Assembly: GCA_030272585.1 (NCBI GenBank) | Contig: BSYQ01000005.1 | Span: 4,805,501-4,869,500, forward strand | DNA from: Bryopsis sp. KO-2023 | Taxonomy: Eukaryota; Chlorophyta; Ulvophyceae; Bryopsidales; Bryopsidaceae | Reading direction: 5' to 3' | DNA: 64,000 nucleotides | Shown here: piece after piece, positions 19,317 through 37,235 of the stretch | How the letters are laid out: the number at the start of each line of letters is the position of its first letter | Position numbering within the stretch: position 1 is the first letter of the stretch | Notes under the pieces: model-generated | The model's database searches: none | Seen by the model: the letters and a program-made list of their open reading frames with translations, nothing else | What the model was told of the DNA's origin: nothing | Program-made: the position numbers and the translations under genes

Positions 19317-20602
19317 TTATCTCCACCTCCAAACTCTCTTCTCCTGCTCTGTTGCTTCCAAGTGTTTCTGCTGGAAGTATGCTGCTGCAATATCTGGACA
19401 GTTTTCCAGGTTCCTGATAGGCTCCCAGCTATCATGGCCCCTGTCATATCCTTGCCATCTGATCAAGAACTCCCTTGAAGTTCTCCCCCTGCCTCTGCCT
19501 CTTCTGACCTCTCTGTGATCCAAAAACATCTCCACATGGAACTCTGGGGTTCCATCAATGATCTCTGCTGGCAGTGGGTTGGGTTCCCTGTTCCCATACT
19601 GCTCATCTTGAATGTATCTTCTTAGCTTTGAGATGTGGAACACTGGATGCAGACTCCACTGCTGAGGGACTTCCAGTTCATAGGCCACTTGACCCACTCT
19701 CTTCACAATCTTGAATGGGCCCACATATTTGGGACCCAACTTCTTGCATCTGTCCCCAGCCAGCTTCAAGTCCTTGGTACTCAAAAGGACCACATCATCC
19801 ACCTGAAACTCATCATCTCTTCTATGCTTGTCAGCATTCTGCTTCTGTCTGTTCTGAGCTCTGGCAATGCATGTCTTGGCCACTTCCACATCCATCCTCA
19901 GGTCATTCAATATCTCATCCACACCTCTGATGGGTGTCTCAATCTTCTTCCTCCCCAATAAGGCTGCAGGCACCAAGGGTTCATCTCCAGAATTTAAGTA
20001 GAATGGGCTATACCCAGTGCTTGCTTGCTTCCCTTGGTTATAAACAAATTCAGCTGCACTCAACTTTAGATCCCAATCAGTTTGAGAGTGATCCACATAG
20101 GCTCTGAGGCTTTCCTCCAGTATCCTGTTGAGCCTCTCTGTTTGGCCATCTGACTGAGGATGTCTGGCAGATGACATCTTCAATGTTGTCCCCACCAGCT
20201 TCATCAACTCCTTCCACAGTTCAGATGTGAACCTGGCATCCCTATCAGATACCAGGTCCTCAGGCATCCCATGATGTCTCCATACCTCATCAAATATCAT
20301 CCTGGCCATCCCTGCTGCTCCAATGGTTCCTTGGGTGGCACAGAAATGGGACATCTTGGACATCCTGTCCACAAAAACCACAATGGCATCCTTCCCTCTG
20401 GCTGTTTTGGGCAGTCCTGTGATGAGGTCCAAACTCACAGAGCTCCATCTCCTAGTTGGAATCTGCAATGGCTGCAAATCCCCTGCAAGTTTCTTGGTTG
20501 ATGCTTTAGTCTTTTGGCACACTGGGCAGCTCCTGCAATATTGGGCTACCTCCTGGGACATCTTCTTCCACCAGAAATGCTGTTGCAACACAGCTAGTGT
20601 TC
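19317..20602 (-). CDS. Element B pol, second part: integrase and chromodomain
   Basis: Reads on the minus strand from 20602, in frame with the part ending at 24332 once element D is excised. It holds the rest of the HHCC zinc site (CRSCPVCQKTK) and the integrase core (SLDLITGLP; SDRDARF; RHPQSDGQTERLNRILEE). The GPY-like region (LGPKYVGPFKIVKRVGQVAY) and a C-terminal chromodomain (FLIRWQGYDRGHDSWEP) follow. Joined, the pol ORF is 1,498 codons including stop, with no lesion. Confidence 0.93.
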
Positions 20603-20607
20603 TCTCC

Positions 20608-20843
20608 TGTTACAAAAACCTCCCAGAACCCTCCCTCGAAGCCTCCTTAACCCATCAAACCCCCACTCATTGATGGGACCCTTGACTAATGTCATTAGGG
20701 CGAGGCACCAGGGTTCTTGAGCTATAGGATCTCCTATTGGGATCCTATGGACCTTAAGCTCTGACTAGGCTATCACTAGTGCCCGTAGCTAGTCTGTAGC
20801 TCTAGCTAGTGCTTACTAGACATCTCGGTGATCACTTGTAACA
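20608..20843 (-). repeat. Element D LTR (its 3' LTR)
   Basis: 236 bp with TG...CA ends, apparently identical to 24096-24331. The adjoining CCCCCTCC tract is the polypurine tract on the minus strand. Confidence 0.95.
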
Positions 20844-20989
20844 GTGCCCCCTCCTTAGATGTGAAGCCGCCTCGGGTTCACTAGGAATCAAATGCATGAT
20901 AGGCATCATACAAATGATAGTGTCTAGTAGTTACACTATTTTAAGAGAGGAGATCATCATCATCCAGTGGCCAACTGTGATATGATGTC

Positions 20990-21340
20990 TCAAACCTTCG
21001 CTTGTGATCTCCTTCGGATCGTGCGAGGTGGTACAATCGATTGTGCTTGAGATTGGTGAAACTCGTCAACCAATTCTCGCGCGTGCACGACATTCTGTTC
21101 CGGTTCCCATGAGTTGTGCTCATGACCGTATCCAACCCATTTCACTAGGAATTCTGTGTAGCATTTCTTGCCCCTACGTCGCTCTCTGCGATCAAGAATG
21201 CGCTCAACCTCCCATTCCAAGTCACCTTCAATCTCGATAGGTGGCGGGGGTTGCACAGTTCCTTTAGCCCAATATGGCTTCAAGAGTGAAGCATGGAACA
21301 CCGGATGTATGGGCAAAGTATCAGGAAGCTTTATTAGGAA
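20990..21340 (-). pseudogene. Element D residual integrase tail and chromodomain
   Basis: Minus-strand frame reading KLPDTLPIHPVFHASLLKPY then a chromodomain (EFLVKWVGYGHEHNSWEP). It matches the C-terminus of element C pol. It follows directly on the early-RT block but in another frame, so the internal deletion fused two distant parts of pol out of frame. Whether it is translated is doubtful. Confidence 0.85.
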
Positions 21341-23753
21341 CAAAGAGGACCGGAGCGCCCCATGGACTAGCACTCGGCTGAATTAATTTTTTGGATAAGA
21401 GTTCGGACAACTGGTCCTCTATCTCTTTCCTTTCAGCAGGGGTGTATCTAAATAAGGGTCTATTGACCGGACGCGTTCCCTCGACCAAAGGGATATCCGC
21501 TGCCACTGCCCTTTCAGGAGGATATTCCGCCAAACCAGAAATAAACAAATCATCAAAGTCCTTCAACAGAGCTTCCATTTGCTCCTCTGGAACTTTGTCT
21601 GTTTCACTCGTTTCATCCGCCAATTTCAGATGGGATGATATCTCTTCCATCTCACGAACTACCAACAAAATAGGTTTTATTGAAGTATCTTTCAACTTCC
21701 TTTTCACCTGTGGTATCGAGAGTAGAGATGCAACCTGTTTTTGGGGAATATCTTTACCCGTAGCTTTGGGTAATAATCCCTGACGAAGCAATATTCGTTG
21801 ATGGGATGAAGTCGTTAAAGCGCACTTCTTTTCAAAGAAGTCTAAAACCGCTTTACGCTTCTGCAACCACGTATCACCAAGTATAATATCAAACCGATCT
21901 AGAAGATCCAACACCAAACAATCAAGCTTCTCTCGATAGCCTTGAATTTTCAGTGTGATCTTTGTCTCTCCCATTATATCAATATTATCCCCATTTGCCA
22001 ACTCAGCCTGTGATCCAACGGTAGCTCGATAAGCTATCCCATTTTGTTCACAAAACTGTTTGGACAGGAAGGCTAATCCTTTAGCTCCTGAGTCCAAAAG
22101 ACAATGGGCTGGGATTCCACTCAAGAGGCCCTCAAAATGCATTGCAAGCTTATCTTGCATGAGAAGCTCTGTTGCTTCCTCTGGCATTTTGGGTACGGGT
22201 GGATCATAGAACACATTCACGGGCCGAGGAATGCCAGGAAGTCTTTTCCGACTTTTCCCCTTTTTGGCTGTGAATAAAACTGTTCCCTTCTTGTATTGTG
22301 CAATCAATCTCATTGAGGTCAAGGCTGGATGCAACTCTTTAGACCTTGCTGGAACAAGAATGCAACAAGAAGTATCATGGGGAGATCTCTTCTTTGCGAG
22401 AAGATAGTGATCGAGATATTTGTTGATATCCTTGAAAGGAGGATTCAACCACACATGCTGTCCACCTAAATCTCTTTCCAGAAATTCAGAAGGTGTGCAA
22501 AATGTATTACATAAGGCACTGTTCACATCCGAACACCCATCCAACGTAAATACGCGGCCTGAAAGTGTCTCAAGACGTTGGAACTCCGCCCTTGTAATTC
22601 CTTGGTGAGAATCTTCTCTCTCATCCCTAAATTCCACAGAAGATTTCATTTCTTCACTCTTTTGACTTCTGGTCAAGATTGGTGCAAGAAAAGCATCACA
22701 ATCAATGTCCATTGGGTCAATTGTGGAATGTGGATTCAGATTCTTCTGATCTCTCAATTGTGTCCACTCAAGTGGGACTTCACAAGAACTGAGGTTCACC
22801 TTTTTCGACTGACCACACTTATGGCCTCTTGCCCATGGTTCCCCACAGAACCAGCATAAGCCAGCTTTCTTGCGAGCCTCCCTCTCACTCTCGGTCAACC
22901 GTACCACCGGTCTTCGTGAGGGCTGAGTGCCACTTTGAGCTTTAAGCCTTGGTTGCTTAGGCTGATGCCTCTTCTTACTTCCTTTGGCTGGATCTGAGAA
23001 GGTAGTTTCCATACCTCTCTTTTTAGCCTTCCGGTCCGTAGTTTTCAACGGAAAACGAGCATCGTGACCCGGGGCTTTAGCCAGCACATACGTTCGCAAG
23101 GCTGAGTAGCTTCTCCATTCCCGACCAAGTGTATCAGTCTCCACTTGTTTGCACAAGTGTGGATGGAGGCCCCTCGGAAGGATCCAACACTTGGTAGTGT
23201 CGTCCATTGGCTCTTTTCGCATTGCTAAGTGAGCATCCACAAAGCGTACGAAGCCAGGAGTATCGACCTTCTGGTCAATATGATCCTTGCAGGAAGTAAG
23301 GGCATTATTTATGGAGTAATCTGTGGCAAGATCTCCAAATGTGCCATCTTCCAGGACTTGGCAGAATTTTTCCCAAGATAAAGACCCGTCCTCGAGTTCT
23401 TCCTTGGGTACCCTGGCCAATAAATGTCGGCGGGGTTTTGATCCGAGGAAAGTAGGTGCAATCACTCCCCACTCCTCTCTTGGGACTTTTGCTGCCCTGA
23501 AGTACATGGCTAACTCCAAACGGAATTCTGGCCATGGGACTTTGCCCTGGTACTTTTCAGGTTTATCAGCAGTCACTCTTCTGGTTTTTCCCAGGTTAGC
23601 ATCTTTCTCTTCTTTGGTCACTTCAGACCTGAGAGTGCTAGGGGACTGTGGTCCCTCTGTTCTTTCACTTGGAGAGTCCTCATTGACTTCCTCCAGAACA
23701 GACCCTTCTTCTAAGGCAAGTACCTCTTGTTCTTCTTCTTGACTCATGGTCAC
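21321..23753 (-). CDS. Element D gag-methyltransferase-like-protease polyprotein, truncated in RT
   Basis: 810 codons. The N-terminus is acidic. A gag region (~60-240; VPREEWGVIAPTFLG, DHIDQKVDT) leads to a CX2CX4HX4C-like knuckle (CWFCGEPWARGHKC, ~300). Residues ~395-490 form an extra domain: FTLDGCSDVNSALC, then HVWLNPPF (~430), then CCILVPAR. This resembles N6-adenine DNA methyltransferases with an NPPY/F motif IV. A protease motif follows (LLDSGAKG, ~553). The ORF ends just after PWGAPVLFVP of early RT. Size and order match element C up to that point. RT, RNase H and most of integrase are absent, so it would need help in trans to move. Confidence 0.88.
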   Translation of the reverse strand: MTMSQEEEQEVLALEEGSVLEEVNEDSPSERTEGPQSPSTLRSEVTKEEKDANLGKTRRVTADKPEKYQGKVPWPEFRLELAMYFRAAKVPREEWGVIAPTFLGSKPRRHLLARVPKEELEDGSLSWEKFCQVLEDGTFGDLATDYSINNALTSCKDHIDQKVDTPGFVRFVDAHLAMRKEPMDDTTKCWILPRGLHPHLCKQVETDTLGREWRSYSALRTYVLAKAPGHDARFPLKTTDRKAKKRGMETTFSDPAKGSKKRHQPKQPRLKAQSGTQPSRRPVVRLTESEREARKKAGLCWFCGEPWARGHKCGQSKKVNLSSCEVPLEWTQLRDQKNLNPHSTIDPMDIDCDAFLAPILTRSQKSEEMKSSVEFRDEREDSHQGITRAEFQRLETLSGRVFTLDGCSDVNSALCNTFCTPSEFLERDLGGQHVWLNPPFKDINKYLDHYLLAKKRSPHDTSCCILVPARSKELHPALTSMRLIAQYKKGTVLFTAKKGKSRKRLPGIPRPVNVFYDPPVPKMPEEATELLMQDKLAMHFEGLLSGIPAHCLLDSGAKGLAFLSKQFCEQNGIAYRATVGSQAELANGDNIDIMGETKITLKIQGYREKLDCLVLDLLDRFDIILGDTWLQKRKAVLDFFEKKCALTTSSHQRILLRQGLLPKATGKDIPQKQVASLLSIPQVKRKLKDTSIKPILLVVREMEEISSHLKLADETSETDKVPEEQMEALLKDFDDLFISGLAEYPPERAVAADIPLVEGTRPVNRPLFRYTPAERKEIEDQLSELLSKKLIQPSASPWGAPVLFVPNKAS

Positions 23754-24081
23754 TTTTTATTTTGGTTTCCTTTGGACACAACCCCAACACAGCAAAACAC
23801 TGGAAATTTGCCCAAAACTCTGAAACCCAACTTTTTTTTCGTCTTACTAGCCCTTCGAGGACCTCTTGGGTCTCCTCGAACTCACAGAACTAGCTTTCCA
23901 CCGATTCAGAAAACAAACCCTAACTTTGTCGGGCTGTAACTTTCCACTGACAACTCCGATTGACCTCAAACAAGTTTCAAACGAAGCGCCCTGTTCTCGG
24001 CTTACTTTTAGACTCCTGTTTTGTCCAATTCCGAGTTGTTATGGCGTACTTATGCGTCAAAACGTGACGCGCTCTCTTCCA

Positions 24082-24093
24082 GCTCCGAAACCA
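24082..24093 (-). promoter_or_regulatory. Element D primer-binding site
   Basis: TGGTTTCGGAGC on the minus strand, two bases from the LTR at 24096. Same 12-mer as in A, B and C. Confidence 0.8.
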
Positions 24094-24095
24094 AC

Positions 24096-24331
24096 TGTTA
24101 CAAAAACCTCCCAGAACCCTCCCTCGAAGCCTCCTTAACCCATCAAACCCCCACTCATTGATGGGACCCTTGACTAATGTCATTAGGGCGAGGCACCAGG
24201 GTTCTTGAGCTATAGGATCTCCTATTGGGATCCTATGGACCTTAAGCTCTGACTAGGCTATCACTAGTGCCCGTAGCTAGTCTGTAGCTCTAGCTAGTGC
24301 TTACTAGACATCTCGGTGATCACTTGTAACA
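24096..24331 (-). repeat. Element D LTR (its 5' LTR)
   Basis: 236 bp, apparently identical to 20608-20843, adjoining the primer-binding site. Confidence 0.95.
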
Positions 24332-27300
24332 TCTCCTTCCCTTTGTGTCCTCCAATCAGACTATCATGCCCTTCCTTCATCACCATTGCTTTTAGACTCT
24401 GTGGCACAACAATCTTCCCTTCCACAGTCTGTAGAACTCCATCAGTAGACATCTTGAACACCCTTTGGGTCTGGATGTCAGAATCCAATCTCTTCAGGAT
24501 TTCCTTGCAATGTACATCATTCTTCTGGGCATCAGCAACCTCTTGTGGACTCCCTTGAGCCATAGGTTCCATGGATGACTTCTCCAGTGCATTGATTTGT
24601 TCATCAGATCTTGACAATTCATTTACAGTACCCCTTTTGGTACCTCCTCTTGCATCATTTGGCATCACATCTGTTTTCAGTCTCTCAGGCAGCTTTCCAG
24701 TTTGGCATCCAGTAACCTTCACCAATCTGGAACCCAATGGCTCTCCTGGTTGTTCATCAAACACAAGATCCTGTGGATGATTCTCTCCCCAGGCCCCCAA
24801 GCCTTGGTACCTCTGAACTTTGCCATCATGCTTCACAAGAGTGTTGGTTGTGCCATTTGGTGCAGATGCCTTCAATTCTCCCCCTCCACTTCCAGAATCC
24901 CTTGGATCCACTGGATGTGGACATCTGGAGAGGGCATCAGCCACCACATTATCTTTCCCAGGGATATGAACAGTTTGGAACCTGAATGGAGCTAGAAACT
25001 CCACCCATCTAGCTTGCCTCCTGCTCAAGTGTTGTTGAGAATCCAGCCAAATTAATGACTGATTGTCTGTTCTGAGGACAAACTCTCTTCCTTCCAAATA
25101 TGCTCTCCACTTCTTTAGGCAGTGGACAATCCCCAACAGCTCAATCTCATGGATGGGGTACCTTGTTTCAGCATCAGTCAGCTTATGGGATTCAAAAGCT
25201 ACTGGATGCAAGCCATCTGGCCCCTCTTGCATCAATACTCCCCCCACTCCTGATTGACTGCCATCAGTGGCCACAATCCAGGGCCAATCTTCCCTGGGAT
25301 GTATCAAAACAGGTGCTGAGCATAATGCATCCTTGAGATCTTCAAATGCCTGTTGTTCTTCTTTTCCCCATATGAACTGCTGATTCCCTTTGGTCAGGTT
25401 GGTCAATGCTGCAGCTTTCCCACTGAAATTGGCCACAAATCTTCTGTAGAAGCAACACAATCCCAGGAAGCTCCTGACATCATGGACATTAGAGGGTGTA
25501 GGCCACTTCTTGATTGCATCCAGCTTATCAGCCATAGGCTGAACTCCTTGGTGAGTGACCCATGTTCCCAGAAAGTCCACTTCCTTTTTCCCTACTGCAG
25601 ACTTGACCAGCTTTGCATACAGTTGATGTTTCCTGAGGGCCTCCAGCACCATCTTCATGTGTTTTGCATGCTCTTCAGGGGTGGATGAATAGATTAAGAT
25701 GTCATCCAGGAAGACTTGAACAAACTTATCAATGTAGGGAGCCAGGATCTCATTCATCATGGACATGAAATGCCCAGGTGATCCACTCAGTCCCATTGGC
25801 ATGACCAGAAATTCATACTGGCCATACTTTGTCCTGAAAGCTGTTTTTCCTTCCTCCCCTGGTGCCATCCTCAGTTGCCAAAATCCTGCCCTTAAGTCCA
25901 CTTTGCTGAAGTACCTTGCATGGCTCAGCCTGTCCAGCATCTCATCCATTCTAGGAATGGGAAACTGAGTGACCTTTGTGGCTCTGTTCAGAGCTCTGTA
26001 GTCCACACAAAATCTCAATGCCCCTCCAGGTTTGGGGACAAAGAGTACAGGTGCTCCAAAATTGCTGTGGCTGGGTCTGATCATTCCTTTCTGTAGCAAA
26101 TAGTCCAATTGCTCCTTCAGAGCATCTAATTCCTTTGGGGACTGCTTATATAGTGGTCCAAAAACTGGTTTAGCATCATCTTTCAATGGGATCTTCATGT
26201 CCCATGGTCTGTGAGGTGGTAGATGATCAGGTAGGTCCATTGGGAAGACATCCTTGTATTCATTAAGGACATCCTTCAGCTCATGTAGTTCATCATCCAA
26301 TCCATCGACCATGCCTTTGAAATTTGCATCTGTACCATCCTCTGTACCCTTGACTGCCTTTGCTTCACCAGGATTCCTGATTTGCTTGGCTGCATTGATT
26401 TCCCCTGATTCCTGGGGATCCTGAACTTTCCTGACCAGCACCAAGTAAGCCTCTCCATCTCTGTTCTTCAAACATTTCTTAGCCTCACTGGCTGAGAGGA
26501 GGTTGATCTCTTGGGGATCCTGAACTGCTGCCACCTTTGGATGGAAACCTTGTAGCTTGATTGGGACTTTATTAGGCCTGCAGATGGTGATCACATGACT
26601 CCTCCAGTCAATGTGTGGGTTGTGGTCAACCAGCCAAGCCTTTCCCAGTATGATCTTGTGCTTCAAGTTTGGTACCATCCAGAAGGTCCTCTTAATCACC
26701 CATGGACCCAATCTGAGTCTGATCAATGCTTTCTCCTTGAGCAGGATTCTGGATCCATCAGCTAACTCCACTGATAGATGTTCATTTTTAAGGATTTTCA
26801 ATGCATTCTCTTGGGCAGTGATGACATCCATAAAATCACCAGTAGCTCCACTGTCAATGAGACATTTGACTGTCTGTGTTTTCAATTTTCCAGGCACATA
26901 TAGCAGGGTGGATCCCAGGTCTCCTTGACCTACTGATCCCAATTTCCCTGTCACCATTTTCTCCTCTGGATCCTGGTTTGGTGTTGGACAATGTGTCTCA
27001 GTTGATGATGAGAATCTGACTTGCTTGTGAATCCCATGATTCCCTTTTGATTCCTCTTTTTCATGTATGGATTTCCATACTCCTGAGGCTGTGAGAACCT
27101 CTCTGGGCTTAGAGATGGATTCCTTGATTGTCTGTAGCTGTTTCTGCATCACCACTGATCCTTTTGGAGGGGAGGACTGTAGACTGTCCTTTGTTATCCC
27201 TTCCATCTCAGGGGTTTTCTGTATGGATTGTCCCAACACTGTGGGGATGGATCCCTTAGCTTTGTTGCTGACCGGATCCCCTTTGCCAGCCCTCGAATCT

Positions 27301-27539
27301 GAGGTACTGGATCTGGCAAGCTTCCCTCCCCCAAACCTTCCCAAATAAGATGAAGATGTCTTACATCTGGATCCTGCCTTTGCCTGAGCACCATTCTCAG
27401 GAGATCCTTTAGATGTTCCCCCTTCAACCTTATCGACCACTAACACCTTCCCATCACTGACATTCCTCTGATTTCCTTGTAATCCTTCCTTGTCTTGAGA
27501 ACCATACTGACGACTTTCCGACGACATTTCCGACATCAC
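24332..27539 (-). CDS. Element B pol, first part: protease, RT, RNase H, integrase zinc site
   Basis: Starts at 27539 (MMSEMSSESRQYG), nine bases inside the junction with element C. About 205 polar residues precede protease (CLIDSGATGDFMD, near 26870). RT spans about 26240-25450 (KVDLRAGFWQLR; FLDDILIYS near 25700). RNase H starts near 25280 (ATDGSQSGVGG). A short linker leads to the first half of the HHCC integrase zinc site (HDSLIGGHKGKE), where element D interrupts. Without element C, the gag stop and this ATG would be separated by only about 53 nt in a different frame, so pol may be made by reinitiation or frameshifting. Confidence 0.93.
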
Positions 27540-29033: not shown

Positions 29034-30260
29034 ATGTCGAGACCAGACCCTTCTGGTGAAGAGGACATCACCACCTTAACGGTAGAAGAACTCCAAAATC
29101 GGATTGCTTTGATGCAATCTGAACATCAGGCGTTCCGCAAAGAGGTGGATGACCGTGAGCGGAAACGAGAAGTGGCTACCAGAAAGGGTAGTACTTCTGT
29201 AGGGTCGGGAAGCAAAAAGTCTTCCACGGCCAAACCTGATAAATTTGATGGCCAATGTCCTTGGAAAGAACATAAGGTCATTTTGGAGATCTTTTGGATT
29301 GCCGAGGGGGTTCCTCGAGAAGAATGGGGTCGGATTGGACCAACATTCTTGGGACCCAAGGGAATCAAGCACCTCATCGCTCGAGTCGGGGAAGAGAAAA
29401 TTTCTGGAGGAAACCTGACTTGGGAGGAAATGTGTGTTGCTATGGATGATGGAAGTTTTGGTGAGTTGGCCACCGAATATGCGGTGACGCAAAAACTGTC
29501 CACATTCAAAGACCACATTAACCGGCGATGCAATACTGGAGAATATGTGCGCCAAATGGACACATATTTTACTCTTCGTAAGACCAAAATTGATAGTATT
29601 TCAAAAATTTGGTTCTTACACCGCAACCTCCATGGAGTGTAGAAGGAAGCGGTTGCCACTGATACTTCGGGTCATGAATGGACTTCATATGAGGAATTCC
29701 GTACCCATGTATTGGCAAAAGGAGTATCGCATGATGAGCGATACCCAGTATTGGAAAAAGGTGCCAAAGAAAAGGAGGAGAGTACCGTTGGATCAAAGAG
29801 ATCTCGAAAAGAGGAAAAAGGAAAGGTGTATCCGGTTAATCGGAAGAAAAACCGAATGATGCCGAGTTTTTCATCGAGATTTGGTGGTGGTTCTCAACAG
29901 ACTCGTAAGAGTAAAGTTGGTAAAACATCTTTTCCTGCGGGTCTTACCCAGAAAGAGTGGGAACGGCGCAAGGCCGCGAACCTTTGTTTCAGATGTGGAG
30001 CATCTTATTTTCCAGGTCATGTGTGTGATACTGGAAAGGTACGGAAGAGTCTCGCTTGTTTCGGGAAAGAACTTCCTAGTATAGAAATTCTTGCATCTGA
30101 GTTATCTCGAAAGGAGGTATCCGAAACAAAAAAAAAAAATCCGAAAAATCCGAAAAATGTAATATTTGATCCGATGGATACGGATATTACGGAGCCCGAG
30201 AACAAATCGGATATTTCTGTGGAGAATGACCCTGACCAGGTTATGTTTGTTGAGAAATGA
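29034..30260 (+). pseudogene. Element C gag with in-frame TAG
   Basis: Starts MSRPDPSGEEDITTLTVEEL. It is homologous to element D gag (VPREEWGRIGPTFLGP; SFGELATEYAV; DHINRRCNT). A TAG at 29640-29642 falls where element D continues. The same frame is open afterwards (KEAVATDTSGHEW) through a knuckle-like CFRCGASYFPGHVC and ends at 30260, where the downstream pol is one frame over. Efficient readthrough would be needed for a full Gag, so this is likely a broken copy. Confidence 0.85.
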
Positions 30261-32052
30261 TGACTCTATCCGATGTGGTGAGGATGATTTGGACGTCGAT
30301 CCCATTGGGGACGCCCAAGATCCTATGCCTAGTAAAGAAGAGAAGGTGCCGGAGAACGATTGCATCTCTGGAATGCAACTTTTAAAATCGGAACTTCATC
30401 GGTTGCAGAATGCAAGTAGAGAGTTCACTTTTGACTCATCTACTAATGATGAAAGATTTGCGATTTGTAAAAAGTTTTGCACTGGACAAGAGTTTCTTGC
30501 ATCGTCAGTAGCGGGACACCATGTTTGGATGGATCCTGGACGAAAGAATTTGAATGAATTCTTAAGGCATTATTTTGCTTGCAAGAAAGAGTCACCTTCT
30601 ACTACGAGTTGCTGCCTATTAATCCCTCATAATATGGCAGTTAGACAAAAAGAAATCAATCAAATGCGATTGATTGCACAATATCGAAAAGGAGCAAAAT
30701 TGTTTGCTCTTAGCAGCGGTAAAGCACCAGGTCTTCTTTGGCCCGTTGATATATATTACGATCCACCTACAGCGGAGTTACCCGGTAACTCGATTCCAGG
30801 AGAGGATTGTAATCTCAGAATGTCAATGTCGTTCAAAGGTTTGATTTCTGGTTCCCCTGGTCAGATTCTGTTAGATTCTGGCGCCGCTGGCTACGCTTAT
30901 ATCTCTAAGCATTTCTGCGAAAGCACAGGGCTTGGTTATAGATGTAAGCAAGGTACCAAAATCGAAATGGCCGATGGAACTCCATTGGATATCGTAGGGA
31001 TAACCTCGATTAACTTGCGTTTGCAAGGCTTGCGGATGAAGATCGAGTGTCAAGTTATCACTACAAAGCATTTTGATTTGTACCTCGGGGATGTGTGGTT
31101 ATGCAATCACCGAGTACTGATGAATTTTTCTACTGGTAGTGCTTCGGTTCTAGCTACACGGGGAAACCGACTCACGATACGACCTAATTTGGTTGTGCGT
31201 GCCCCTAGTCCGTCAAATGCACGGATAAATCCCTTGTTGAGTATAGCCCAAACTCGAAGACAACTCCGTAATAAGGAGATTTGTCCTTTTCTGGTTCTAG
31301 TTCGGGAGGTCCCGAACCCTTTTGAGGGGGAGGAATCTGGGGTACCCGAATTGCCCAAAAATCCTCTAGTGTCTTCATATCAAACAGAGCTGGAAAGTCT
31401 GTTAGATGAGTATAAAGACAGATTCTCAGATGGGTTGGCGGAATGCCCTCCATCTCGAGAAGAGGATGCAGCAATTGATCTTGTCCCTGGAGCGAAACCG
31501 GTACATAGACCAATGTTTCGTTACACACCGGGTGAAAGAAAAGAGATTGAAGATCAAGTCTCTGATATGCTGCAGAAGGGTTTGATTAAGCCTAGTTGTA
31601 GTCCGTGGGGTGCACCAATCTTGTTTGTTCCCAAACCGGATGGTACTCGACGGATGTGTATCGACTATAGAGGCTTAAATAAGTTGACGATCAGGAATCA
31701 ATATCCACTACCAAGGATAGATGATCTCCTTGATCAACTTCAAGGTTCGAAGTTCTTTTCGGCCTTAGATTTGAAAGCAGAGTATTGGCAACTTCGAGTG
31801 AAGGAGTCAGACCAACCGAAGACCGCTTTCAAAACCCCATTCGGTCTGTATGAATACAAAGTGCTTCCAATGGGCTTGACGAATGCACCTGCAATATTCC
31901 AGACTTGGATGAATCGGGTATTCTCGGGTATGATTGGGAAGTCGGTCCTAATATACCTCGATGACATACTTGTATTCAGCAAAACTCCGGAGGAACATGT
32001 GCAACATTTGCGAGCCGTGATGAACGCTTGCGTGAGCACAAAATGCTCTTGA
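30166..32052 (+). CDS. Element C methyltransferase-like domain, protease and RT
   Basis: Overlaps the end of gag in another frame. Around 30420-30640 it aligns with the extra domain of element D (FTFDSSTNDERFAIC; HHVWMDPGRKNLNEF; CCLLIPHN). The catalytic-type NPPF of D is replaced by MDPGRK, so any methyltransferase activity is probably lost. Protease follows (ILLDSGAAGYAYIS, near 30870), then RT (RMCIDYRGLNK; YLDDILVFS at 31954-31980). At 32025-32040 one base appears missing (reading AVMNACVSTK instead of ...LREHKMLLK), which truncates this frame at 32052. Confidence 0.88.
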   Translation: MIRWIRILRSPRTNRIFLWRMTLTRLCLLRNDDSIRCGEDDLDVDPIGDAQDPMPSKEEKVPENDCISGMQLLKSELHRLQNASREFTFDSSTNDERFAICKKFCTGQEFLASSVAGHHVWMDPGRKNLNEFLRHYFACKKESPSTTSCCLLIPHNMAVRQKEINQMRLIAQYRKGAKLFALSSGKAPGLLWPVDIYYDPPTAELPGNSIPGEDCNLRMSMSFKGLISGSPGQILLDSGAAGYAYISKHFCESTGLGYRCKQGTKIEMADGTPLDIVGITSINLRLQGLRMKIECQVITTKHFDLYLGDVWLCNHRVLMNFSTGSASVLATRGNRLTIRPNLVVRAPSPSNARINPLLSIAQTRRQLRNKEICPFLVLVREVPNPFEGEESGVPELPKNPLVSSYQTELESLLDEYKDRFSDGLAECPPSREEDAAIDLVPGAKPVHRPMFRYTPGERKEIEDQVSDMLQKGLIKPSCSPWGAPILFVPKPDGTRRMCIDYRGLNKLTIRNQYPLPRIDDLLDQLQGSKFFSALDLKAEYWQLRVKESDQPKTAFKTPFGLYEYKVLPMGLTNAPAIFQTWMNRVFSGMIGKSVLIYLDDILVFSKTPEEHVQHLRAVMNACVSTKCS

Positions 32053-34373
32053 AGAGATCAAAATGTGATTTCTTTAAGAAAGAGCTTCACTATCTTGGAT
32101 TTGTTATAAATCAAGATGGTATTTCCGCTGATAAAAGGAAAACGGAGAAAGTAGTAGAGTGGCCAGTCCCAAAGAACGTTGCGGAATTGCGTTCATTTTT
32201 AGGGCTCTCTAACTATTTCCGGAGATTTGTGCAAGGTTACAGCAAGCTTGTAGCCCCACTCACAAATTTACTTAGGAAGGGTAAAGAGTGGAGTTGGACC
32301 GAGGATTGTCAAAAAGGATTTGATGGTGTTAAAGAGAATTTAACACATGCACCTTGTTTGGCAATGCCTAACTTCGAAAAAGATTTTGAAGTTATCGCAG
32401 ATGCTTCGGATTATGCGATCGGTGCAATCTTGTTGCAAGAGGGACATCCTATAGCTTTTGAAAGTCGAAAGTTATCAGGAGCCCAACTTAACTGGAGCAT
32501 AGGTGACAAGGAAATGTTCGCCGTAGTGCATGCTCTTAAGTTGTGGCGATGCTACCTGGATGTGCGTGTGTTTAAGGTGGTGTGTGATCACCAGCCTAAC
32601 ACATATTTCCATTCCCAGGAAACTCTCTCTCGAAGGTCGGCACGTTGGCTCGAAGTCCTCCAGGGGTTCCGGTTCGAGTGGGAATACAGGCCGGGACGGA
32701 CGAACGTGGCAGACCCCTTGTCACGATATCCGTCGTATTCTCAGCAGATCGGAATACTCTCGGAGCTGGGAGGTGGCCAGAAACGACCAACTTGGAATGG
32801 GGATCCGTCCTCGCCCCGGCCCGGTACGTCGATGCTAAAGGAGAGATTGACTGAGGGGATCACTAGGGATGAGTGGTTTGAAACCGAAGATGTCGCCGCT
32901 TCAGGTTGTCAAAAGCACTCAGGCCTGTGGTGGAATGGTGCACGAGTAGTAGTACCAAATTGGGATAATCTTAGAGAAGATATCCTACATGATAGCCATG
33001 CAAGTGTATATGCAGGACATTTTGGGATCCGCAAGACCCAAAGAACAGTCTTAAAATACTTTTGGTGGCCTGGCGTAGAGGGAGATATCGCAAACTTTGT
33101 AAAGGGATGCGATGCATGTCAAAGGAACAAATACCGTCGCGGCAAGGTGCCTGGTCCTTTGCAACCTTTACGTATACCTGATGGTCGATGGGAATCAGTT
33201 TCAATGGATTTGATTACTGGTTTGCCTAAATCAGGAGCAGAAGCATTTGATGCCATCTTAGTTTTTGTGGATCGACTCACAAAGATGGTGCGATGCGTAC
33301 CAACGCACACTACGTGTGATGCGGTACAAACGGCGAAACTCTTCGTTACTGAGGTCTTCCGTTTGCACGGTCTTCCTAAGCACCTCGTAAGCGATAGAGA
33401 TCCTAGGTGGACTTCAAAGTTCTTTAGAGAGCTTTGTAAGACCTTAGGGGTCACTCAAGCATTGTCGACAGCTTTTCATCCACAGAGTGATGGACAGACT
33501 GAAGCAATGAATAGGATCCTCGAAGATACCTTACGGCATTTCGTAGGACCTCGTCAAAGAGATTGGAGTGACTTGTTGCCAGTGGTAGAGTTTGCATTGA
33601 ACAACTCTAAGTCGATGGCTACTGGTGAAACACCGTTCTTCTTGAACTACGGTAGAGATCCGTGGACACCATTAACGGTACAACTTCCATCCAAGACATC
33701 TAATGTCATGGGTCCTGGAGGTCTGAGTAGACAAAGGACACAGATTGGAGTACCGGCGGTGAAGAAGATGACCGAGGACATTCGTGAGGCGATTGTCAAA
33801 GCAAAGCGGTGTTTAGAAGGTGCTCAGCAAAGGATGAAGACTTATGCCGATGTGCGTAGGTGTCCAGTTGATGTTCAAGTAGGCGATATGGTCTTGCTGG
33901 ATGCACGACATATCAAATTGAAACACCCTGGATCAAGGAAGTTATTGCCACGTTGGTTGGGTCCTTTTCGTGTTTTGGAAGGTGTCCAAAAACGAAAACC
34001 GATGGCAGAACAGCTAGCATTCCGATTGGAATTGCCTGATTCGCTTCCTATTCATCCCGTCTTTCATGCTTCTTTACTTAAGAGGTATTGGTCGCATGGA
34101 AAGACACAACCTCCTCCGCCACCTGTGGATATACAGGAAGAACTAGAGTATGAGGTAGAAGACCTCCTCGACTACCGTGAAGTAAAGGTCGGTCGACGAG
34201 TAGTTCCGCAGTACTTGGTAAAGTGGACGGGATACTCACATGAGCACAACTCTTGGGAGCCTGAAGCGAATTTGGAGAACGCTCGGGAGCTGGTAGAGCA
34301 GTACCAGAAGAGAAAGAAATCAACGTTGATTCCCCCTATTCCGGTACGTCGAAGTAGGCGACTTCGTTCGTGA
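32028..34373 (+). CDS. Element C RT end, RNase H, integrase and chromodomain
   Basis: Continues pol after the frameshift: RT connection (YLGFVINQDG; LRSFLGLSNYFRRFV), RNase H (VIADASDYAIGAILLQ, near 32395), the HHCC site (33000-33125), integrase core (SMDLITGLP; SDRDPRW; FHPQSDGQTEAMNRILED) and a chromodomain near 34130-34310 (YLVKWTGYSHEHNSWEPE). It ends RRSRRLRS at 34373. The tail before the chromodomain (PIHPVFHASLLKRYW) matches element D. Confidence 0.9.
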   Translation: MREHKMLLKRSKCDFFKKELHYLGFVINQDGISADKRKTEKVVEWPVPKNVAELRSFLGLSNYFRRFVQGYSKLVAPLTNLLRKGKEWSWTEDCQKGFDGVKENLTHAPCLAMPNFEKDFEVIADASDYAIGAILLQEGHPIAFESRKLSGAQLNWSIGDKEMFAVVHALKLWRCYLDVRVFKVVCDHQPNTYFHSQETLSRRSARWLEVLQGFRFEWEYRPGRTNVADPLSRYPSYSQQIGILSELGGGQKRPTWNGDPSSPRPGTSMLKERLTEGITRDEWFETEDVAASGCQKHSGLWWNGARVVVPNWDNLREDILHDSHASVYAGHFGIRKTQRTVLKYFWWPGVEGDIANFVKGCDACQRNKYRRGKVPGPLQPLRIPDGRWESVSMDLITGLPKSGAEAFDAILVFVDRLTKMVRCVPTHTTCDAVQTAKLFVTEVFRLHGLPKHLVSDRDPRWTSKFFRELCKTLGVTQALSTAFHPQSDGQTEAMNRILEDTLRHFVGPRQRDWSDLLPVVEFALNNSKSMATGETPFFLNYGRDPWTPLTVQLPSKTSNVMGPGGLSRQRTQIGVPAVKKMTEDIREAIVKAKRCLEGAQQRMKTYADVRRCPVDVQVGDMVLLDARHIKLKHPGSRKLLPRWLGPFRVLEGVQKRKPMAEQLAFRLELPDSLPIHPVFHASLLKRYWSHGKTQPPPPPVDIQEELEYEVEDLLDYREVKVGRRVVPQYLVKWTGYSHEHNSWEPEANLENARELVEQYQKRKKSTLIPPIPVRRSRRLRS

Positions 34374-35666: not shown

Positions 35667-37235
35667 CTACTCGTTTCCCGACGACTTGTTTTGGCCACCC
35701 TTCTTCTTCGATCGACATTCTCTCGCGAAATGCCCGAACTTTCCGCAGTTATGACATTTCCCTTTCTTGGGTGACGACTGGTTCCACTTCTCTCCTGACA
35801 CTGCGCCAATCTCCATCTTATCGTCATACTGCCGGTTTTGTTTTGGGTACCAAGGAGTCTGCTCGTTTCCTGCTCGGCCTGCAGCCCGGTCTGCTTGCAG
35901 TGCCAACTGAACAGCCTCGTCGAATGTCTGAGGACGGTTTAAGAAGACGTGAGATTTTATCTTCGCTTGTAGGCTGTGCGTGAAGAGATGTATTTTGTCT
36001 TCCGTTGCCATAGTTGGAGTCTTGATCAAGAGTTTGGAAAACAGAGAGATGTGCTCCCTGAGCGTGCCCTTCTTGTGCGTTAGCCTGAATAGCTGGTCTC
36101 TGGCCGTCTCTGCCTTGTCAAAGGGGTCGAAGTATTCGATAAGCTCCTGCCCCAGCACATCCCAGCTCGCCATCACCATCGGGTTTGACGCTTTCTTCAC
36201 CGTGTACCACTCTTGTGCAGCTCCTCTCAACACCGTTGACGCCAGCAGTGCCCGTTTTCCAACCGGACACCCGGACGCCACAAAATAGGTTTCCATGCTC
36301 TCCACCCAGTCTGAAGCTCCTTCTCCGGTTTTTCCGAAGAACTGAGGAGGATTCCCCAGCCGTATAGGCGCGAAGTTCCACGCAACAGGTATCGACGGCC
36401 CTGCAGCGGAGCCTCCACTCGTTGCTCCCGCCGTTGTTCTTGCTTGCCGTATCCTTTCTTCCATTTCGTGTTTTGCTGCCAGTAACGATGCCTGCAGTTC
36501 GAGCTTCTGGTTCGCCATTTGTTCTTGCAGGTCCAATAGTTTCTTGTGCAGGCCTGAACCTGCTTCCAGTGTATGACCTGCAGCAGACTGCGCCGTCGAC
36601 TGCTGTTCCGTAAGTTCCGTCATCGTTGCCAGCACCGTGGCAAACTTCGTGTCCGTCTCCGTCCGAAACTCCATCGCCTGGGTTTCTCGTAGGGTTTGGC
36701 TCAGCGTCAGTTCGTCCAACTTCTGCATAAGTTTCTGGTGGTTCGCTTGGCTTTCGAGGCTCACTTTGGACACCTTCTGTTCCAGTTTCGTGCCTCCCTG
36801 TCGAACTTTCAGCATGTCCGCGCGGATCTCGCCCGCCGATTTCTCCAACAACTCCAGTTTCCCGGTAGTCTCGACATGTCTGGTTTCGTTCGTGGTTCCA
36901 AGCTCAGCAACTTTCTCCTTTACAGCTTTGACCTTGTCCTGTAGACCAGCTCCCGCTTCATCGAGCTTGCCGACCGCTTTCGACAGTTTCTGTAAGGACT
37001 CTCCATGTTTATTCGCCAGTTTTTCGACTGCCAAGCCTGCTTTGTGAACCTTTGCGAACTCGTCGCCATGCTTATTCACCAGTTTCTCCACGTTCTGTCC
37101 TGCTTTGTGGATATTCGCGATTTCTGTCTTTATCTCCAACCCTTCGAGTTCCCCTAGACGGTCTTCCAGTGCTTTACACCCCGTCTTCAGTGCTGCTACT
37201 GACTCCAGCACGTTGTTCAAGTCTTCCGCCGACAT
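35667..37235 (-). CDS. Element B Gag
   Basis: 522 codons, start MSAEDLNNVLESV. The first ~230 residues form a long heptad-rich coiled coil with repeated KLVNKHGDE/KLANKHGES-type units. The Retrotrans_gag capsid region follows (~290-440; AQEWYTVKKASNP, YFDPFDKAETARDQLFRL). Near the C-terminus is a canonical CCHC knuckle, CHNCGKFGHFAREC, for RNA packaging. It ends SSGNE. An unusually large share of this Gag is coiled coil. The frame is intact. Confidence 0.93.
   Translation of the reverse strand: MSAEDLNNVLESVAALKTGCKALEDRLGELEGLEIKTEIANIHKAGQNVEKLVNKHGDEFAKVHKAGLAVEKLANKHGESLQKLSKAVGKLDEAGAGLQDKVKAVKEKVAELGTTNETRHVETTGKLELLEKSAGEIRADMLKVRQGGTKLEQKVSKVSLESQANHQKLMQKLDELTLSQTLRETQAMEFRTETDTKFATVLATMTELTEQQSTAQSAAGHTLEAGSGLHKKLLDLQEQMANQKLELQASLLAAKHEMEERIRQARTTAGATSGGSAAGPSIPVAWNFAPIRLGNPPQFFGKTGEGASDWVESMETYFVASGCPVGKRALLASTVLRGAAQEWYTVKKASNPMVMASWDVLGQELIEYFDPFDKAETARDQLFRLTHKKGTLREHISLFSKLLIKTPTMATEDKIHLFTHSLQAKIKSHVFLNRPQTFDEAVQLALQADRAAGRAGNEQTPWYPKQNRQYDDKMEIGAVSGEKWNQSSPKKGKCHNCGKFGHFARECRSKKKGGQNKSSGNE

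Follow-up and report, generated by a model that had tools for sequence, protein, structure and literature searches.

Methyltransferases are unusual components of retroelements. DIRS elements, which use a tyrosine recombinase and have neither a protease nor a DDE integrase, contain a methyltransferase domain that is detected with the Pfam profile PF05869 (Dam), according to the available portion of PMC3783388. The Gypsy element KnitGypsy-Dnmt3 of the alga Klebsormidium nitens carries a cytosine-C5 methyltransferase, DNMT3, under purifying selection; the available text of that study (PMC5890265) reports Dam for DIRS only, and raises for both DIRS and the DNMT3-bearing elements the question of why an element should carry a methyltransferase. 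Ty3/Gypsy elements of the orchid Phalaenopsis encode an AlkB m6A demethylase in a separate ORF (available text of PMC9289625). In Ectocarpus, a Sola DNA transposon encodes a protein with ParB and methyltransferase parts (similar ones occur in green and red algae), and a Gypsy element carries a NADAR domain (both from the available text of PMC12477816).

Here we describe a lineage of Ty3/gypsy chromoviruses in Bryopsis sp. KO-2023 whose polyprotein contains a Dam-family methyltransferase-like domain (MT) between Gag and protease. In the open-access literature we found neither a Ty3/gypsy element described as having a Dam domain nor an earlier description of a chromovirus lineage marked by an MT; an earlier mention elsewhere is possible. 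The lineage resembles DIRS in having a PF05869-type domain in a retroelement polyprotein, but DIRS elements have it at the C end of RT-RNase H, whereas here it lies between nucleocapsid and protease. With KnitGypsy-Dnmt3 it shares a DNA methyltransferase domain in the Gypsy polyprotein of a green-lineage alga; DNMT3, however, is located in Pol and is structurally unrelated to Dam according to the available text of PMC5890265. Like the orchid elements, these are Ty3/gypsy elements with an adenine-methylation enzyme, but the orchid enzyme is an RNA m6A eraser in a separate ORF, and the domain described here is of the writer type and part of Gag-Pol.

The window is a 64,000-nucleotide stretch of the genome (contig BSYQ01000005.1, positions 4,805,501 to 4,869,500). 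One MT-bearing copy in it, element D, has the following features, all on the minus strand:

20608..24331, minus strand: element D, an internally deleted copy of a family I LTR retrotransposon
20608..20843, minus strand: 3' LTR (236 bp, TG...CA)
20990..21373, minus strand: integrase C-terminal piece and chromodomain in a short separate ORF (PF00385, 67.4 bits)
21321..23753, minus strand: ORF with gag, MT, protease and partial RT (21324..23747 from the first ATG, MSQEEE)
21804..22127, minus strand: aspartic protease (RVP_2; PF08284, 36.9 bits)
22077..22100, minus strand: LLDSGAKG in the protease
22188..22601, minus strand: MT domain (ORF residues 385-522, about 140 residues)
22344..22367, minus strand: CCILVPAR of the MT, C-terminal to HVWLNPPF
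22434..22457, minus strand: motif IV of the MT, HVWLNPPF
22524..22550, minus strand: motif I-like FTLDGCSDV of the MT
22815..22856, minus strand: zinc-knuckle-like motif CWFCGEPWARGHKC, of non-canonical spacing
24096..24331, minus strand: 5' LTR, from the alignment of the LTR pair

The first-pass annotation had noted this ORF, 21321-23753 (-), with FTLDGCSDV, HVWLNPPF and CCILVPAR behind the knuckle, and all are there in that order. The ORF exists as described, but it belongs to an internally deleted copy: it ends within RT, and the chromodomain is in a separate ORF. The deletion took out most of the region from RT to integrase, leaving 3.7 kb compared with about 6.06 kb in full copies, and no other copy among 40 scored matches shares its junction. 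Pfam gave no match in the gag part and no zinc-knuckle match in the ORF; gag is named from its position and the knuckle. The alignment of the two LTRs shows 100% identity across 237 bases, of which one is flank; this suggests a recent insertion, and the element is flanked by a 5-bp target duplication, TCTCC, at 20603-20607 and 24332-24336. Element D is nested in another Ty3 element, inside the H2C2 domain of that element's integrase, which is split: one flank matches profile positions 1-24 (E = 0.059), the opposite flank positions 30-58. This outer element, at 19317-20591 and 24294-27539 (-), has a chromodomain, and its Pfam scan gave no MT match. Elsewhere in the window, an ORF at 35667-37235 (-) looks gag-like by eye: its CCHC knuckle seems canonical, and its long N-terminus resembles a coiled coil.

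The MT of element D is a real Dam-family (PF05869, phage-type) methyltransferase-like domain. PF05869 matches residues 392-469 of the whole ORF with E = 6.8e-6 (26.3 bits, below the curated cut-off of 28.1) and the domain cut out alone with E = 5.4e-7 (29.9 bits, above that cut-off); in the genome search it reached 29.1 bits. Its best stretch is profile positions 20-97 of 169, and the C-terminal part of the MT, conserved in the lineage, lies outside the match. In the MT domain alignment (A1, 12 rows), 11 rows match Dam at E <= 0.01 and all 12 match PHROG 111 'DNA methyltransferase', bearing out the adenine methyltransferase-like identity proposed in the first pass; the NCBIfam profile for phage N6A methyltransferases, TIGR01712, gives element D 18.9 bits, far below its cut-off of 97.05. 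The C5-cytosine profile PF00145 has no match in the domain, where only PF05869 matches, and none of the genome's six PF00145 matches coincides with an MT place. Structure prediction agrees with the earlier proposal as well: the AlphaFold2 model (pLDDT 85.3, pTM 0.80) confidently takes the Rossmann-like fold of adenine-N6-methyltransferases, and its top Foldseek matches include phage N6-adenine methyltransferases and the cap-adenosine-N6 enzyme PCIF1. HVWLNPPF, which we take to be motif IV, the catalytic motif of amino-methyltransferases, is represented by NPP[FY] in all 12 A1 rows (NPPF in element D and in the full-length copy L009). In motif I the classical FxGxG is absent; F-x-x-D-x-C is conserved in most rows, and the D in at least 90% of them. 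A chance motif is ruled out by the Dam profile match and the presence of the same domain in other polyproteins. The combination of NPPF with a Dam/PCIF1 fold predicts SAM-dependent adenine-N6 methylation.

PCIF1 is the best solved fold match of the MT, and one reading is accordingly that the domain is a PCIF1/CAPAM-like RNA adenine-N6 methyltransferase, acting on the element's own mRNA or cap to the benefit of its stability, its translation or its escape from host RNA surveillance. The likeness to PCIF1 (PDB 6irv-6is0) lies in the predicted fold and the NPPF motif; the MT adjoins the nucleocapsid knuckle, and orchid Gypsy elements encode an RNA m6A demethylase (available text of PMC9289625). 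A search of PDB sequences with the A1 profile gave three matches, of which PCIF1 was the only methyltransferase (human E = 0.13, zebrafish E = 0.31); these values are non-significant, however, and the significant sequence matches of the MT are phage DNA methyltransferases. Solved chains from the phage family were missing among the results of the sequence search, so PCIF1 may owe its rank to being the nearest structure available. PCIF1 itself is large and contains a WW domain, and Foldseek labels its viral relatives as WW-domain proteins; at E <= 0.01, the Pfam matches of L009 include no WW domain. We regard this PCIF1-like reading as unlikely.

The position of the MT between Gag and protease of a Ty3/gypsy element, as first annotated, is confirmed by full-length family I copies. 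In each of the 11 that were fetched, a single ORF of 1700-1702 aa runs without interruption and encodes NPPF. The order in L009, from Pfam, is gag, MT, protease, RT, RNase H, integrase, chromodomain, with matches to RVP_2, RVT_1, RNase H, H2C2, rve, SH3_Tf2-1 and Chromo (62.6 bits); the succession protease, RT, RNase H, integrase, with the chromodomain after the integrase, is that of a Ty3/gypsy chromovirus. L009 is set apart from DIRS by its protease and DDE integrase and by an MT that precedes the protease. Family I copies inserted recently: eight of the 11, like element D, have 236-bp LTRs that are 100% identical, with TG...CA ends and exact 5-bp duplications. Two further LTR pairs, whose alignments extend into flank, are 99.6% and 97.7% identical, and in the remaining copy the search detected no pair. 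DIRS-like elements, in which the order is RT-RNase H-MT, are found in the same genome:

G000 C1:9555000-9564900: DIRS-like element L021, motif IV HPPW, not NPPF
C10: DIRS-like element L026, motif IV HPPW, not NPPF

The Dam match in L021 is below the cut-off at 23.1 bits, and a Pfam scan of the neighbouring 940-aa ORF found no recombinase. When the Ty3 MT was compared with one DIRS-like sequence by hhalign (probability 1.4, E = 0.038), a common origin was unsupported by this comparison.

A genome census with the MT domain of element D as query gave 150 scored places out of 182 candidates, a lower bound, which were grouped by identity and aligned range into four families. Family I comprises 31 full and seven degraded or partial places (one of the seven, C12:1452854, may belong to family II), family II 29, family III 69 and family IV 14, and many copies have open frames. 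The MT domains of families I and II are 64-65% identical, and both retain NPPF, found in every family I sequence read (element D, the 11 full copies and two further copies) and in all four family II copies read. NPP[FY], conserved throughout A1, is missing from the members read of the other two families: motif IV is DPGR in nine of nine family III places and NPGK in three of three family IV places. The unread members presumably share these motifs, judging by identity; families that lack NPPF in the members read make up the majority of places counted. The D of motif I is kept in 11 of the 12 family III and IV members read, despite the loss of NPPF, and in three of the 11 other motif-lost proteins that could be read there, so that motifs I and IV are not strictly co-decaying. 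One family III copy is the second MT-bearing element of the window:

29034..34373, plus strand: family III chromovirus, its frame broken into three ORFs (29034-29642, 30166-32052 and 32028-34373)
30340..30801, plus strand: its MT domain, motif IV VWMDPGR

Its MT has lost the catalytic motif, and the model (pLDDT 82.7), which has the same best fold match as the family I MT, predicts that the fold is retained. The gag piece of this element, 29034-29642 (+), matches DUF1192 at 27.1 bits, above the cut-off of 25.5; a coiled coil may account for the match.

The family III MT is under purifying selection. Among its listed pairs, dN/dS of the MT is 0.05-0.25 in 28 of 35 and 0.25-0.46 in seven, six of which involve the diverged L063; from these low values, an MT without the catalytic motif is still maintained, at least in family III. 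In family IV the sole listed pair, which has diverged very little, has a value of 0.35. Between families I and II dN/dS is 0.13 for the MT and 0.09 for the protease, at a dS (about 1.4-1.7) near saturation, and the intragenomic copies of family I vary too little for a selection estimate. A domain that persists under selection without its motif could be a pseudo-methyltransferase in all families, a part of Gag-Pol with a structural or nucleic-acid-binding function; the NPPF of families I and II would then be a leftover. Many relatives have lost motif IV while keeping the domain; motif-lost family III, with its purifying selection and the same best fold match as the NPPF-bearing MT, occupies 69 places compared with 67 for families I and II together, and the motif I D of families III and IV outlasts NPPF. 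A leftover is harder to reconcile with the presence of NPPF in both family I and family II at their present divergence, and with NPP[FY] in all ten related A1 polyproteins, which are 35-45% identical to the MT of element D, although these were found by MT similarity and the sample leans toward retention. A pseudoenzyme throughout seems to us improbable.

The same MT domain precedes the protease in other polyproteins. Searches with the MT region yielded P0001, P0002 and P0004-P0011 (two of 181 and nine of 40 candidates, one of the nine being the query), and a scan of IMG/VR with the A1 profile found five loci at 26-40% identity. The domain profile detected the MT in 26 of 131 polyproteins examined. 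Twelve of the 26 retain NPP[FY], and 11 of the twelve are the window protein or come from the MT searches. Among the 120 listed of 7470 matches to an RT search, 15 proteins have the MT, one of them (P0120) with NPPF. Of the 20 matches listed that are closest in RT to element D (at least 56.6% identity, including L009), 16 have the MT, and three of the four without it begin shortly before or inside RT.

The MT tree pairs family III with family IV (98/96) and, next to them, family I with family II (92/86), with all four united at 89/91. The RT alignment, for which 117 of 133 proteins passed the aligned-length filter, gave a smaller tree in which 25 MT-bearing rows are separated by one branch (99/93) from four outgroup rows without a detected MT, Haematococcus rows being omitted. 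On this tree the motif changes six times between intact and lost, and the test rejects uniting the 14 motif-lost rows in one clade (p-AU 0.0001); on the MT tree, from a short alignment of 30 rows, three changes are enough and such a clade is unrejected (p-AU 0.092). The truncated P0011 was left out of both trees, P0118, P0099 and P0109 out of the MT tree, as was the window protein P0003, which lacks a full RT and for which L009 stood in. A wider RT tree of 61 rows took in 35 of 36 hand-picked rows without a detected MT (P0079 had insufficient coverage), and nine chromoviral rows from Haematococcus (P0015, P0016, P0020, P0023, P0027, P0028, P0036, P0058 and P0087) fall inside the MT-bearing clade. 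A re-check of the MT stretch in 18 proteins, including these nine, found it in none, though some are truncated ahead of RT. In the most economical history the MT was gained once, its catalytic function was lost repeatedly and in some cases the whole domain disappeared; the gain may have come through transfer between elements. Retrotransposons are known to capture host sequence, and the MT could be imagined as a recently captured host gene fragment, a passenger without function; its place before the protease in divergent elements found elsewhere, and its presence in four families of this genome with dN/dS well below 1, rule this out, and we give the idea practically no credence.

We favour, with some reserve, the reading that the MT of families I and II is a SAM-dependent adenine-N6 methyltransferase working in the particle, and that the motif-lost MT has a second job. 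From Ty3 biology, the MT, being a segment of Gag-Pol, would be carried into the virus-like particle, adjoining nucleic acid and protease. There the domain of families I and II would act on new cDNA or on packaged RNA, marking the copy before integration; cDNA is the more likely substrate because the sequence families matched consist of DNA enzymes. In other parts of the lineage NPPF has decayed, probably several times, with the fold retained, and the persistence of the fold without NPPF implies a non-catalytic job, most plausibly the binding of nucleic acid or the shaping of Gag-Pol beside the protease.

The host has adenine-methylation genes of its own. An MT-A70 gene at G000 C1:6004380-6004883 is MTA1/AMT1-like, its protein scoring 242 bits (7f4r) and 247 bits (7yi8) against MTA1 chains and 133 bits against METTL3, which suggests native 6mA in Bryopsis. 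METTL3- and METTL14-like exons, named by eye, are also in the genome. Its telomeric CCCTAAA repeats, its many light-harvesting genes and one LHC exon, with siphonaxanthin LHCII chains labelled Bry-Lhcb among the best solved relatives (the top row, 9vfj, carries no such label), indicate a bryopsidalean green alga. In AMT1-encoding species, AMT1-type enzymes accompany 6mA near the transcription starts of active genes, and 6mA shows no enrichment over transposable elements, according to the available text of PMC12695648. A more speculative possibility, which we hold to be rather doubtful, is that the MT of families I and II places N6-methyladenine on the element's own cDNA in the particle, so that pre-marked copies would enter the nucleus bearing the mark of the host's MTA1-type active-chromatin 6mA. 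If so, families III and IV, which have lost catalysis and kept the domain, would persist in the same nucleus by other means and would form with families I and II a natural contrast for retroelement self-marking. As NPPF-bearing and motif-lost MT domains reside in one genome, native 6mA maps could separate a role in methylation from a role of the fold, and in this genome that separation needs no engineering.
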